A stretch of 64,000 bases of DNA, taken from assembly GCA_919902985.1 (NCBI GenBank), contig CAKKSC010000005.1, forward strand, positions 1 through 64,000, read 5' to 3'. Below the pieces are notes generated by a model. That model was not told the DNA's origin, searched no databases, and saw only the letters and a program-made list of their open reading frames with translations. This DNA is from Desulfuromonadales bacterium. GTDB taxonomy: Bacteria > Desulfobacterota > JAENJC01. Of this stretch, positions 4,101 to 55,772 are shown piece by piece; positions within the stretch are counted from its first letter, which is position 1; the number at the start of each line of letters is the position of its first letter. The position numbers and the translations under genes were made by a program.

Positions 4101-6691
4101 ACAGGCTGCCGTATCGCGCGGCAGTCAGACCGGTGCAGTTGATGGCAGGAATGAGCCGTGAAGTTGGCGTTCCGTCGAGCGTTCCGGTCTCGGTGGGCAA
4201 GGACGGCCTTGTCGAACTTTCATCCTTCGGCTCTGTGGACGTAAAGGCGCGACTATTAAATAGTGACGGTGTAACCGTCGTGGCCAATGACGACAGGCCT
4301 GATGACTGGAATTTCCATATTTCCACAAACCTCAAATCCGGTGACTATCGGCTGTCGGTGGAGCCGGTAGGTGTGCAGCACGGCTCATGCACAGTTTCCG
4401 TCAGGGTCCCGGAAGAAGAGGAAGACAAGCCCATAACCCTGCCTGCGGACGCTAAAATAAAACTCTCCAGTTCCGTCAAGATTTTCCCTCTGACGCTTCC
4501 AGCCGAGGGAGACCTCCTGGTCCTTTCGGCCAATTCCCCGGAAAATGTCGGGATGTCTCTGGAAGTCTCAGAGCAGGGCGCTTGGAAGACGATAGGCTCA
4601 TCCTTCGGGCGCAACGCACGTCTGGAGATTCCGTTGCGTGTTCCCGGCTCCAAACCGTCGGACTCACGCTATCGTCTGCGCCTGTCATCAATGGACCGCC
4701 GCTATACCGTTGCGGAACTCAGCGCGACTATTGTCTCGCCTCCGGCGCTCAGCCAGGCAGATCTGAAGAAGGGGATTTCCCTCTCTTACTCTGCTCATTA
4801 TGCAGCCGCGGTGAAGATTGAGAAAGACGGTCTGCTGCAGATACCGGAAGAGTATGGCGCCCTTAATTGGTCTGCGGCCCCACTCCATCCATGTAAAGAA
4901 ACGACCGGGCATTTCCTGTCCGTCAAGAGCGGATATATCTGGGTCACTGGGGGGATGACGCAGGGTCGGGCCTCGGAAGGTATTGCGGCCCGCGCCGAAA
5001 GGGTGGAGCTGGCTTCCGGCCTTGAAAAATCTATACAGATCCGGCTGTCTGATGATGAAAAGACCCAATGCGATCTTGCGGCTCCGACTAGCGGACCGGT
5101 CCTGGTTACTGCCAAGTCCCGGATAGGTCGACCTGCCGTCGAACTTATGGAACAGGGCATCGATGGGCCTGTAAACGCCGATAAGATGGCCATAGGGGAA
5201 CACGGTTCCCTTAGCGTGTCTCTTGATCCAAAAAAACCTGCGCTCAGGCTATGGGCTGCCTCGCGCTCCAAAGGACCTTTTGAAGTGCGTCTCTCCCAGA
5301 TCAGCTTCGATAAACCTGAGCAAGTCCCCGCGCCGGAAGGCTGGAATGGGTCTGTCGAGGGAGTCAAGGCCAATCTGTATGACCTGCCGAAGGGGGACAA
5401 GCGCATCAGGCTTTCTCTCGGGGAGGCCCTTGCCGCGGTCTTTTTAAAGGGTGAACGGATAGCGAGCGTCCATTGGGCCGAAGGGAACCCATTTACCGAA
5501 GGGTTTGAAACGGATGCAGAAAGTATGCTTCTCCTGCACTCACGGGAAGGCATGGACCGTTTTGCCCTTGAGATGGTCCCGATAAGCGGCGCGTTGATGA
5601 CACCGCCCCTTGCAAGCGGCAAAATTTATGAAAAGGTCATGCTCAATTCCGGAAGGGTCAGATTAAGGATTGCGCCGGGCAAGACGCCTGAAGACAACCT
5701 CAGGGTCCTCCATGTGAGAGGCGGCTCAGGGGAGCCTGCCTTTACAGACAATTCAGGGAATGTCCTGTCCGGCAAGGATATGAAGATTGGCCCAAAGGGC
5801 GGCATTCTTTTGATAGAACACCAGCCAGGGGCCCTGCTCTGCTGGCTGGACAGGCCAGGCGAAGAGGCTATGGATCTCTGGACGTTCCGCGATAAGCCGC
5901 AGGTTTTATCGGTAACGATTCCGGCATCATTGCCCCTGGAAGGGAACACCAAGTCATTTCGGATCAATGCAGGCAAGCCGGTCATGCTCCATGTGCGCAG
6001 CGCCGCACCTCTGACGACATACCTTGAGAGGGGAGAAAAGACCCCTGAAGTGGAGGTGTATTCCAAGGGGGTCGCTCTTGACGCCTACCTTCCGAACGGT
6101 ACGGCGGAGCTTCGCCTCCGGGCATTTTCGGGCGGGACCATGTCTGGCAATGTGGACATTTCCGCTACCCCGGTTGTGCCCACCGATGAAGGCCTGGGGC
6201 CGGAAGTGCTTCTGGCACCTGGCAGGGCAAGGCTCTTTTCCTTCAAAGTCGAAAGGGAAGGGAATATCGGCGCTGGAGTGAAAGCCGATTCGGACATTAT
6301 TGATATGGAGATACTGAACAGCATAGGTCTAGTTCTGGGAAAGGGTACGGCCCAAATGATCAATCTCAAGCCCGGCTCATACCTGATAAAGTTGCGGCTT
6401 CCCGACAACAGCGCCCCGGTCAGGGCGCGCCCAGCCATTGTCGGCCTGAAGGCCCCGGATACCGGTCCTCCGGAAGAGGAGATAAGAAAATACATTTTCC
6501 CAGAAGAAGAGATGCCTCAGAGCTTTTCAAGCAGGCGTGCGGGAGAATCCAGGTATGGTGTTGGAAGGGCGACCCGCCCGGATGCCGAAGGAGGAGAGGA
6601 TGGAACAGTGACAAAGGAATCAGGAGATGAGGAATGGCTGAGGGAAGCACCGGATTCCGGGGGTGAATCGGAAGGCGGCGAAGGGGAGTGA
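1190..6691 (+). CDS. Giant secreted beta-rich protein, partner of A2M and PBP1C
   Basis: 1833 residues. The ATG at 1190 follows a GGGAGGG ribosome site at 1178-1184. An N-terminal hydrophobic stretch ending near VAAET looks like a Sec signal peptide, so the protein should be periplasmic or surface-exposed. I recognise no named catalytic domain. A loose motif G-x-Y-x-[LIV] followed by alternating hydrophobic residues recurs near residues 110, 225, 475, 750, 807, 848, 958, 1051 and 1728, suggesting repeated beta-sandwich units like bacterial pre-peptidase C-terminal domains. The last 70 residues are acidic, glycine-rich and probably disordered. It is 115 bp upstream of the alpha-2-macroglobulin gene on the same strand, so a shared role in trapping proteases or guarding the cell wall is likely but inferred. 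Confidence 0.85.
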   Translation: MNLKHGVSCRKSRICFLLFLIFQTFSPVDLLVAAASPSVAAETPAATLSKTELSASGHQESILTVSKFGRYAITVKSDQGTGLQLIDHMVGPGDIVGSAGEKDGRLDLFLEKGRYKIVTYGHEKASGNARLEVHPFNEKNSPQPPAVVKYRIIESSLNDFEQISYWLEIKNRQHVALEAAGRSLADLRLWKDGKWLLNVSPSISTVQPKTGQPLRVCRLTADLEPGLYLLSAYGGISLPWSNDGGVHPFYLRYGIPELGSVTRKRFTVSPFGMDRFVVPGSSTYFRLEFPEARDASIQVGWLEQNAPFNNSGERKDILKKSVPPVAELMVGGNKDAKHIVTITGEAGSPYVFQHFESNYSYSFQGSGDYWVSSVHSGHPQDSVDATAVLTSGYDTSRAQPLLAQTIELDQSKGYSRRANLLAPLTLFLKINGGGKYQILSQGVEARFVIEPFFTSRPTNYARPASQASGYTWDLDPGYYVLTAEPVKKGIIDMSIRPASLSAAVNKAYSALSDMAKDAARSIPGGKDAEKDGVPGAVRAAVRFPKVSLNRNTWYTMYMNLQPEVKTGLVVRPLPLDLRDPLPVTQTPGETVSVPLQISEEGTLRAEAEDGSLMEVSLDNGPWQKKQTAGAGRHTVSVRSTSRDTINYALMVEPHRLNPGMPLPPISQVALAGLPDFPVLTDNKPLFFDLERNSLSNFIIRAEKPDLYHIQSTGLLATGGNLRSRTTPSFVHESENGSGRNFSIRQYLREGDYQITVESKGQSKGHLGLNMRHTDLIPGGFLTSRIPARVSLPAGTSVAYQFVITSPGEYRVRAFGLGRTLKCRLEDKESWPVVAPNIPADITRRFEKGQYRLIILPENTDARIVTLIEPTPVPRRFRGHGPHKLPLAATVEHTWMEPENGKERQPDRWRFDLPAQADVNIELTGEMQGELMRVNPDKTTSKVAFIPPARGWKGNLPAGTYSIDAVAMRVNNRLPYRAAVRPVQLMAGMSREVGVPSSVPVSVGKDGLVELSSFGSVDVKARLLNSDGVTVVANDDRPDDWNFHISTNLKSGDYRLSVEPVGVQHGSCTVSVRVPEEEEDKPITLPADAKIKLSSSVKIFPLTLPAEGDLLVLSANSPENVGMSLEVSEQGAWKTIGSSFGRNARLEIPLRVPGSKPSDSRYRLRLSSMDRRYTVAELSATIVSPPALSQADLKKGISLSYSAHYAAAVKIEKDGLLQIPEEYGALNWSAAPLHPCKETTGHFLSVKSGYIWVTGGMTQGRASEGIAARAERVELASGLEKSIQIRLSDDEKTQCDLAAPTSGPVLVTAKSRIGRPAVELMEQGIDGPVNADKMAIGEHGSLSVSLDPKKPALRLWAASRSKGPFEVRLSQISFDKPEQVPAPEGWNGSVEGVKANLYDLPKGDKRIRLSLGEALAAVFLKGERIASVHWAEGNPFTEGFETDAESMLLLHSREGMDRFALEMVPISGALMTPPLASGKIYEKVMLNSGRVRLRIAPGKTPEDNLRVLHVRGGSGEPAFTDNSGNVLSGKDMKIGPKGGILLIEHQPGALLCWLDRPGEEAMDLWTFRDKPQVLSVTIPASLPLEGNTKSFRINAGKPVMLHVRSAAPLTTYLERGEKTPEVEVYSKGVALDAYLPNGTAELRLRAFSGGTMSGNVDISATPVVPTDEGLGPEVLLAPGRARLFSFKVEREGNIGAGVKADSDIIDMEILNSIGLVLGKGTAQMINLKPGSYLIKLRLPDNSAPVRARPAIVGLKAPDTGPPEEEIRKYIFPEEEMPQSFSSRRAGESRYGVGRATRPDAEGGEDGTVTKESGDEEWLREAPDSGGESEGGEGE

Positions 6692-25930: not shown

Positions 25931-26035
25931 CTATCCACGAGATAGTATTCTAAGCGAGTAGTTATAGTTAATGGACAGTCACAGCCCCGCCGTACCAGGA
26001 TATACCTGAATTCTCACGGCGCGAAGCGCCGGGAG

Positions 26036-26153
26036 AACGTAGCGTTTAGCTGCCGGCGCGCTTGCGGGTGCCTTGGAACCAACCCTTGCCTCTTCCCATT
26101 GAACGGTAGCCCTCTTGCAAGCGTGATCGGTCAGCTACAACGCCTGGTTGGGT
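26036..26153 (-). other. attC-like integron recombination site 1
   Basis: Read on the minus strand it starts with R''-like ACCCAAC (26153-26147) and folds into a long imperfect hairpin. GGCGTTGTAGCTG pairs with CAGCTAAACGCT, leaving an unpaired G in the left arm; then CGCTTGC pairs with GCAAGCG. One unpaired base in the L'' arm is the hallmark of integron attC sites. The right R' box keeps only GTT (GTTCTCC). At 118 bp it is within the known attC size range. A very stable GGCGC hairpin (26011-26036) adjoins it. Weaker than site 2. Confidence 0.55.
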
Positions 26154-26196
26154 GATACTGTCAGATGTAGACGGTAATAGACCCAATGGTTTGATT

Positions 26197-26601
26197 TCAG
26201 GATAGGCCATGATCGTTGAAGAACTTGCTGTATTCTTTGTCAGTTTCTTTAATATGATGCATCAACCATTCCTTCAGAAAAGTAGTAATCTCAAGAGAGA
26301 CGACAAATTTCCCTTGGTTAAGTCTGTTTCTGACATCAAGCGCTTTATCCGTAAATATTTTGTGCATTTCGATGTGGCTGCCGGCGTCAGGATATGCAAA
26401 TTTCTTGAAGTAATCCTCCTCTGTCGAAAAGTGGTACTGAGTGTATTCCACCAACGAATCGAGAAGTGTACAAAACGCTTGTCCAGAATCTTTTCCGACA
26501 TACTCATAGAATTCGTTGATCATGCCTATTAACTTTTGGTGCTGAAGATCAATCTCGTGAACATTTACGCTAAGACTGTCGTCCCATTTCATGAACGCCA
26601 T
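26197..26601 (-). CDS. Bacteriohemerythrin
   Basis: 134 residues, a complete single-domain hemerythrin. The di-iron ligands are visible in order: HEIDLQHQKL (His), YHFSTEEDYF (His and Glu), HIEMHK (two His) and EWLMHHIKETDKEY (His and Asp). It binds O2 reversibly in the cytoplasm and may deliver or sense oxygen in a microaerobic cell. It is not in an operon. It lies alone between two attC-like sites (26036-26153 and 26650-26754) and is read in the direction expected for a gene cassette. Start 49 bp after the upstream site fits a cassette. Mobility is inferred. Confidence 0.93.
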   Translation of the reverse strand: MAFMKWDDSLSVNVHEIDLQHQKLIGMINEFYEYVGKDSGQAFCTLLDSLVEYTQYHFSTEEDYFKKFAYPDAGSHIEMHKIFTDKALDVRNRLNQGKFVVSLEITTFLKEWLMHHIKETDKEYSKFFNDHGLS

Positions 26602-26649
26602 GGAATACCTCCTGGTTTATGCCTCGCCTTTTTGGTTCTCTATATTTAC

Positions 26650-26754
26650 ACCCAACGCCTTTCTTCAGCGGCGAAATCGTGCTGGCGTGACTTTTGCGTT
26701 TTTTGCAAAAGGCATGACAGCATGATTTGGTCCAACTGCAAGAATTTGTTAGGC
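26650..26754 (-). other. attC-like integron recombination site 2
   Basis: Minus-strand order: R'' GCCTAAC (26754-26748), a long hairpin, then R' GTTGGGT (26656-26650) preceded by GGC, matching RYYYAAC...GTTRRRY. Left-arm TTCTTGCAG pairs with right-arm CTGAAGAA leaving one extra G, the extrahelical base typical of attC L boxes. The central stem of about 24 bp has some 20 matches and closes with CTTTTGC/GCAAAAG. 105 bp in all. The combination of R boxes, extra base and long stem is hard to explain otherwise. Confidence 0.72.
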
Positions 26755-26764
26755 ATATGTTTAC

Positions 26765-26922
26765 TCAGGCTGCATCGTGAAAGATTTTTGCCTTACTACT
26801 TGGCCTCTTGAAATTGTTAAACCCACGTTTCTTTCCGGCCTCAAGACATACCAGATAGATTGGGAGCCGTTTATTGACGCCAATCGATTCAATTTCTATG
26901 GACTTGCACTTTCCTTCTGAAC
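26765..26922 (-). pseudogene. C-terminal fragment of an unknown cassette gene
   Basis: On the minus strand an open frame ends with a TGA at 26767-26765, only 10 bp before the R'' box of attC site 2, as in gene cassettes. Its about 52 codons look protein-like (EIESIGVNKRLPIYLVCLEA, then GKKRGFNNFKRP). The 5' end is cut off at a repeat array (26923-26982). I do not recognise the family. Confidence 0.45.
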
Positions 26923-26982
26923 GAATAATGCGAATAATGGGGAGAATAATGGGGACAGAGAATAATGGGGACAGATTTATTT
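26923..26982. repeat. GAATAATGGGGACAG repeats
   Basis: Four tandem-like copies of GAATAATG, two extended to GAATAATGGGGACAG and the last followed by ATTTATTTT. This motif is commonly seen near RAYT-type transposase genes in related bacteria (known pattern; no RAYT is visible here). Confidence 0.75.
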
Positions 26983-27049
26983 TAAACCTGCTCCCCGTCT
27001 TGCTTTTCCGCCCTTGACGCCCGTAACCCCTTTCATAACTCTCCTCAAT

Positions 27050-27113
27050 CCCCTCTTACCTTAAGAGGGGAAGTATTTAAATTGGCCCCTGGCCCCTCTT
27101 AACCTAAGAGGGG
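27050..27113. repeat. Two copies of a 21-bp palindrome
   Basis: CCCCTCTTA-3 bp-TAAGAGGGG occurs at 27050-27070 and 27093-27113. The second copy supplies the last codons and TAG stop of the vapC-like gene on the minus strand. Confidence 0.85.
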
Positions 27114-27520
27114 GAACCGCTCAACCAGCTCTCCACTTTCAACCCTTTGATATTTTCAAAATGCCTCTCATTAGCGGTTACAAGGGTTATGTTGCCGTTT
27201 AAGGCTGTGGCTGCAATCAACATGTCTTCCGGTGAAATCCCCTGGCCTTTTAGCGAAAGGGAGGCTGCCACATCACCGGCAATTATGGCGATGTCCTGCG
27301 TGACAGGGAGGACCCTGACCATAGATAGAAGGTTATTTTCTATCTTTTCCCAGAACGCCTTATGATCCGGTCTCCTACTGCTACCGTAACGGAGTTCCAT
27401 GACACAGATACAGGAGGTAAGTTGCGCCCTTGCCGGCGTTTTTGAGAGTCGGTACAGTAAGGCCTGGTTCGGTTTTTTCTTTATGACCTCGCTCAAGATG
27501 TTGGTGTCAAACAGGTACAT
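27104..27520 (-). CDS. vapC: VapC-family PIN-domain toxin
   Basis: 138 residues. PIN nuclease acidic residues are seen in FDTNILSEV (start), CVMELRYG, GISPEDMLIAATAL and the closing LVTANERHFENI. VapC toxins cut tRNA or rRNA when freed from antitoxin. The antitoxin gene ends 1 bp upstream, the normal antitoxin-first order. The last residues and stop lie inside a 21-bp palindrome, so the original C-terminus may have been slightly longer or different. The catalytic set is complete. Confidence 0.92.
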   Translation of the reverse strand: MYLFDTNILSEVIKKKPNQALLYRLSKTPARAQLTSCICVMELRYGSSRRPDHKAFWEKIENNLLSMVRVLPVTQDIAIIAGDVAASLSLKGQGISPEDMLIAATALNGNITLVTANERHFENIKGLKVESWLSGSPS

Positions 27521-27521
27521 A

Positions 27522-27791
27522 TCAGACCTTGCGCCCCTTAGCCGTCGCCCTTAGCCTCTGTTTATGGCGCTTTTCCACAATGGTCTCCAGTTCCTTGAAG
27601 TAGGGGTCTTTTTCATCGAGCCATCCCCTGACGGAGGCAAGCCCCTTTCCCTTTTCTGCGGGAGTGGAAATAACGGCGACAGGCTTTCCCCGCTTGGTTA
27701 TAACTACCTCTTCATGGCCGTAGACAACTTTGTTAATTAACTCTGAAAAATGCGTCTTTGCCTCGGCTATGCTTACTTCTTCCCTATGCAT
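27522..27791 (-). CDS. Phd/YefM-type antitoxin
   Basis: 89 residues. The N-terminal fold is typical (VSIAEAKTHFSELINKVVYG, then EEVVITKRGKPVAVI) and binds operator DNA; the basic C-terminal tail wraps the toxin. It precedes the vapC-like gene with no gap. A perfect 6-bp inverted repeat (TGACCA / TGGTCA) lies 14-37 bp upstream of its start next to a TATAAT box, a likely autoregulatory operator. Confidence 0.9.
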   Translation of the reverse strand: MHREEVSIAEAKTHFSELINKVVYGHEEVVITKRGKPVAVISTPAEKGKGLASVRGWLDEKDPYFKELETIVEKRHKQRLRATAKGRKV

Positions 27792-55647: not shown

Positions 55648-55670
55648 ATAAGTTATGAATACCTTTTAAC

Positions 55671-55770
55671 CCAGCCCTGTGAGGCTGGAAAGGGGAACAG
55701 ATGAACAGTGTAAATACTAACAAAATGCAAGGGCCTTCTTACATAAAGATTTGTAAGGAGGCCTTTTTTT
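55671..55770 (+). promoter_or_regulatory. PyrR-type attenuator before pyrR
   Basis: CCAGCCCTGTGAGGCTGG at 55671-55688 forms a stem with the loop CNGNGAGGCU known from PyrR-binding RNAs. A terminator follows: GGCCTTCTTAC / GTAAGGAGGCC (55732-55763) and seven T. PyrR with UMP would stabilise the first hairpin and favour termination. Inferred from pattern and position just before pyrR. Confidence 0.75.
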
Positions 55771-55772
55771 AG

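Follow-up and report, generated by a model that had tools for sequence, protein, structure and literature searches.

Sedentary chromosomal integrons hold an integrase gene (intI), an attI site and a cassette array together, and integron integrases cut attC sites between the G and the TT of the R' box. Each cassette therefore starts with its own TTRRRY, which in the circular form restores the partner for the cassette's own R''. Clusters of attC sites without an integrase are common, and may be fossils or may be fed by a distant integrase. Such a cluster is termed a CALIN (cluster of attC sites lacking an integron integrase; PMC8618304, PMC11434368), and three routes to its origin have been published: action in trans, a former local integron, and formation elsewhere followed by rearrangement (PMC8618304). 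With regard to the cargo described below, a hemerythrin HHE cassette has been named among class 1 integron PCR amplicons of paddy soil (PMC9277118).

The window analyzed here comprises bases 1-64000 of the 144-kb contig C5 of a draft genome (G000; 2.13 Mb in 88 contigs, 95% complete), and was compared with two relatives from the same class, the congeners G001 and G002. It contains a CALIN, in which two attC sites bracket a complete hemerythrin cassette. Like described CALINs, the window has two attC sites, cassette DNA and no integrase nearby, but other loci of G000 have attI-like leaders and the genome has a detached intI, which fall outside the usual definition. The attC anatomy, the rule governing cassette boundaries, the attI-like leaders and the TIGR02249-family intI of G000 are shared with sedentary chromosomal integrons, whereas the G000 intI is alone on contig C21, the attI-like sites with their cassettes are spread over many contigs, and the window itself holds attC sites and cassettes only. 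We consider it highly probable that the segment at 26010-26920 (minus strand) is a truncated, integrase-less cassette array that was built by an integrase, is one of many dispersed modules, and is served at most in trans.

Anatomy of the attC sites and the cassettes

As we read it, the array at 26010-26920 runs on the minus strand from the end of one cassette through attC site 2, the hemerythrin cassette and attC site 1 to the first 28 bp of a mini-cassette, and lies upstream of hisZ:

26765..26920, minus strand: 3' end (~51 codons) of the preceding cassette's gene, upstream part missing; open frame
26650..26754, minus strand: attC site 2, belonging to the preceding cassette; boxes GCCTAAC (R'') and GTTGGGT (R'); covariance model, scorer and fold
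26038..26655, minus strand: complete hemerythrin cassette, 618 bp, from the TT of the site 2 R' to the G of the site 1 R'
26197..26601, minus strand: bacteriohemerythrin gene, 134 aa; AGGAGG before the ATG; PF01814, NF033749 and DcrH alignment
26032..26153, minus strand: attC site 1, belonging to the hemerythrin cassette, 122 nt including R'; R'' ACCCAAC, R' GTTCTCC; scorer and layout
26010..26037, minus strand: start (28 bp) of a mini-cassette that is truncated and has no ORF; identity to the C26 copy

The reference set consisted of 18 attC sites from other genomes of the phylum, where they adjoin intI genes. Their common top-strand layout begins with R'' (RYYYAAC), followed by 8 nt, a single extra base and six paired bases; after an extra A come a variable loop, the partner bases, a 9-nt spacer and R' (GTTRRRY). 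Compensatory changes back the stem (80 cells versus 29 in shuffles), although the sites were pre-selected for arm complementarity and this support is hence not independent. Both window sites fit the layout on the minus strand, with the 5' arm holding one extra base; they are 500 bp apart, and similar in layout while mostly different in sequence. By the R''/R' boxes and the L arm, site 2 is complete, and site 1 is complete except for its R'.

The preliminary description had placed two attC-like hairpins here, and the scores bear this out. Site 2 reaches 51.7 and site 1 reaches 44.9 with a scorer that permits a long loop and was trained on these 18 sites, both window sites being kept out of training, compared to 17.5 for the next-best place in the window and a top value of 31.9 in 2.05 Mb of Markov-1 simulated sequence. 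The limits proposed for site 2 (26650-26754) are unchanged, but site 1 extends over 26032-26153, not 26036-26153. The full R boxes reported for site 2 (GCCTAAC and GTTGGGT) are also recovered, as this site is the only match in the window to a strict scan for R''/R' with arm complementarity. For the suggested check with an attC covariance model, our model, built for this analysis from the 18 sites and distinct from that of IntegronFinder, has site 2 as its one convincing match within the window (33 bits, E 2.6e-6), and does not report site 1. Running the model without filters yields short spurious local matches and still does not recover site 1, a failure that the length of the site and its non-canonical R' probably explain. 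On the recombinogenic bottom strand (here the plus strand), site 2 has a strong fold (z = -4.8), and that of site 1 is weaker (z = -1.7), a modest gain over shuffles.

The hemerythrin cassette starts with TTGGGT at 26655, which predicts an R'' of ACCCAAC; the R'' of site 1 is this exact complement, as a circular cassette requires such pairing. The same rule holds exactly in six more G000 cassettes (two on C6, those on C60, C67 and C85, and the second on C26), and is off by one base in several others (C19, C29, C15). The hemerythrin gene had been described as lying between both sites in the proper cassette direction, and it does so (26601..26197, minus strand, with AGGAGG before the ATG); the cassette reading has its strongest support in the TTGGGT/ACCCAAC match. 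The upstream gene fragment likewise ends as reported, with its stop codon (26767-26765) 10 bp before site 2, and no protein family matched this fragment (26765..26920).

Site 1 has an unusual R', GTTCTCC, because the TTCTCC is already the start of the truncated mini-cassette that follows. Thirty base pairs at this start are identical to a copy on C26 (L149, a stretch of that contig, 5048-5077), and near copies follow attC sites elsewhere. The palindromic, ORF-less mini-cassette (TTCTCCCGGCGC...GGAGAAC...) is present at L149 5048-5180, L147 480-640, L152 1483-1620 and in L193, where the array is headed by a full copy that has an attC-like fold of its own; it recurs in several arrays, and also in one distant genome. 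Insertion at a secondary chromosomal site, considered as a source of the odd R', was dropped since GTTCTCC is the recurrent start of this element. The window array is thus cut on both sides, with the preceding cassette reduced to its last 51 codons and the mini-cassette ending after 28 bp.

Because a GC-rich palindromic repeat comes after site 1 and has further copies in the genome, one could take the hairpins for a conserved RNA or a REP-type repeat, and hemerythrin for an ordinary chromosomal gene. We regard this as very improbable: Rfam has no match at either site, the sites resemble one another in layout but little in sequence, R'' fits the start of its own cassette, and the recurring palindrome is the start of the mini-cassette and not attC itself. 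It is the cassette boundary rule on which we reject the RNA or repeat interpretation.

No integron integrase is present in the window, none exceeds the TIGR02249 cut-off (265 bits) on the 144-kb contig C5, and no attI-like leader precedes the array. CALINs have at least two neighbouring attC sites and no intI beside them; with its two sites, the locus is a CALIN, as had been proposed, and with both intI and attI missing, it is not a complete integron. From its anatomy, the array was very likely built by an integron integrase. Elsewhere in the window, a PIN toxin and Phd/YefM antitoxin pair is next to the array (27104-27791, minus strand), and a PyrR binding site (55658-55771, plus strand; RF00515, 66.4 bits), an RNA leader of pyrimidine genes, was also identified.

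The hemerythrin cargo

The hemerythrin gene is intact and oriented as a cassette gene should be. Its product matches PF01814 (50.8 bits) and NF033749 (138.5 bits, with a cut-off of 84 bits), and aligns nearly full-length with the hemerythrin domain of DcrH (PDB 2avk). Like known bacteriohemerythrins, it consists of one full-length domain in which the expected iron-binding residues are present, and by analogy the 134-aa protein should bind oxygen, for storage, sensing or scavenging. It differs in context and in sequence, in that the closest relative, from a sample of 297 genomes of the phylum, shares 52% identity and lies outside any cassette. No attC was found within ~1.5 kb of hemerythrin genes at 29 other loci of the phylum, and among the matches listed, every plasmid relative is <40% identical. 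A promoter scan around the gene gave no more sites than shuffles, and none positioned to drive the gene. We note that G000 has a second, distant hemerythrin gene (C6:4538-4921), situated ~0.6 kb before the C6 attI-like leaders and outside cassettes.

The paddy-soil cassette (PMC9277118) is similar in being a hemerythrin-domain gene carried as a cassette, a match by description only, but it is a PCR product without genomic context. With this one earlier naming, hemerythrin appears to be rare as cassette cargo.

Integrase, attI-like leaders and cassettes elsewhere in the genome

The rest of the genome had been proposed as the place to look for an integrase and more attC sites, and it has both. 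A single integron integrase exceeds the TIGR02249 cut-off (C21, 375.8 bits), and the R, HxxR, H and Y catalytic positions are kept as in its relatives. It is without an N-terminal extension found in the G001 enzyme and in Nitrospirae relatives (~80% identical), and may be inactive, given this missing segment. Neither an attC nor an attI-like leader adjoins the C21 intI. The covariance model identifies 14 attC sites in G000 (E up to 0.006), singly or in small groups on 12 contigs. Likewise, no attC scoring at least 33 was seen within ~10 kb on either side of the C21 integrase relatives L206, L210, L215, L218, L236 and L250, so that solitary integron integrases may be common.

At eight examined G000 loci, an attI-like leader is positioned before the first cassette, and these leaders are of two sequence types. 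Type A ends ...AACTTGTTAAATATATAG|TT and is present at C60, C67, C6, C29 and C19, whereas type B ends ...TCTAATAACTG|GTT and is present at C15 and C26, with a relative at C85. Type B resembles attI sites adjoining Nitrospirae intI genes; in G001, the type A leader is upstream of intI and divergent from it, which is the expected position of attI. No G000 leader adjoins intI, and the conserved leader is dispersed in the three congeners, with intI alongside at G001 C37 only:

G000 C60, 6179-6244: attI-like leader
G000 C67, 28432-28498: attI-like leader
G000 C6, 5507-5652: attI-like leader
G000 C29, 2023-2085: attI-like leader
G000 C19, 28225-28289: attI-like leader
G002, contigs C34, C253, C183 and C96: attI-like leaders
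G001, contigs C198 and C37: attI-like leaders

We found no description of dispersed attI platforms in the literature searched, although this does not prove novelty. Further cassette cargo in G000 includes an SBF transporter, a RibD_C reductase, a SnoaL-like protein and a TIR protein of the CAP12/Pycsar kind. The C26 cassette gene at L149 3461-4402 encodes a product matching the TIR domain of CAP12/Pycsar effectors; judged by this match, it is possibly a phage-defence cassette. At C67, a module of an attI-like leader and one cassette (L145, a stretch of that contig, 4402-6367) is located between transketolase and synthetase genes whose spacing is 63-64 bp in both congeners; the module is ~1.97 kb, of which ~1 kb is other DNA including a nucleotidyltransferase gene.

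Origin of the window array

The C60 locus bears on how such arrays acquire cassettes. Its attI-like leader is in the same place in G000, G001 and G002, and the sequences agree up to ATATATAG|TT, with different DNA after it. Beside this leader, all three species have a stub of the intI start (the first ~12 codons), which reads MLNIPTALLSKY in G000 versus MINIPAALFTKY in the intact G001 intI; the comparison shows 84% DNA identity over 190 bp. A complete cassette is seen at C60 in G000 only, and no attC scoring >26 was found there on the short contigs of G001 and G002. Going by these sequences, the local intI seems to have been gone already when the species split, with the cassettes changing later; such change after the loss of intI would need an integrase acting in trans. 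We infer action in trans because the sequences differ past the G|TT while all retain the stub of the deleted intI. Alternatively, the ancestor held several cassettes, with each line losing different ones.

For the window array, we propose that the hemerythrin cassette, in circular form, would have been inserted by an integron integrase acting on the folded bottom strand of the cassette's attC, and that attI and the ends of the array would subsequently have been removed by deletion or rearrangement. The dispersed modules of G000 would have been served at most in trans, either by the detached C21 intI or by one since lost. Insertion at this very place is putative, as there is no attI before the array and no empty site was found for comparison, G002 having another gene, serA, beside hisZ. 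The weaker record of site 1, the missing N-terminal extension of the C21 enzyme and the draft state of the assembly (88 contigs) also count against the proposal.

The intI stub beside the attI-like leader at C60 in all three species, together with the truncation of the window array on both sides, is also what would be expected of a fossil, in which intI and attI of a complete local integron once stood beside the array and were deleted, with a trans-acting integrase playing no part. We take this to be a serious contender, if somewhat short of even odds; the window locus has no remnant of intI or attI, and the C60 cassettes differ between species following the apparent intI loss.

Short repeats at 26930-27113 (AATAATGGGGACAGA; CCCCTCTTAACCTAAGAGGGG) flank the array and recur elsewhere in the genome. 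That repeats border the array, and that the locus is a synteny break (serA adjoins hisZ in G002), could instead reflect formation elsewhere, on another replicon or in a chromosomal integron, with the array moved in by rearrangement or homologous exchange. This seems rather unlikely, as adjoining plasmid or transposon genes are absent and plasmids searched with the locus DNA gave no match.

The reading that we prefer, of a truncated, integrase-built array served at most in trans, could be part of a larger arrangement. We suggest tentatively, and with some doubt, that the genus has a distributed integron, with many attI platforms lacking intI and one trans-acting integrase that inserts, exchanges and moves cassettes, including that of hemerythrin. 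If true, gene capture would reach beyond one single array. The genus offers a direct test of CALIN origin, as an attI-like leader is common to three species, the local intI was apparently lost before they split, and the DNA behind it differs. The hemerythrin cassette itself would represent an oxygen-handling protein carried by a mobile unit.
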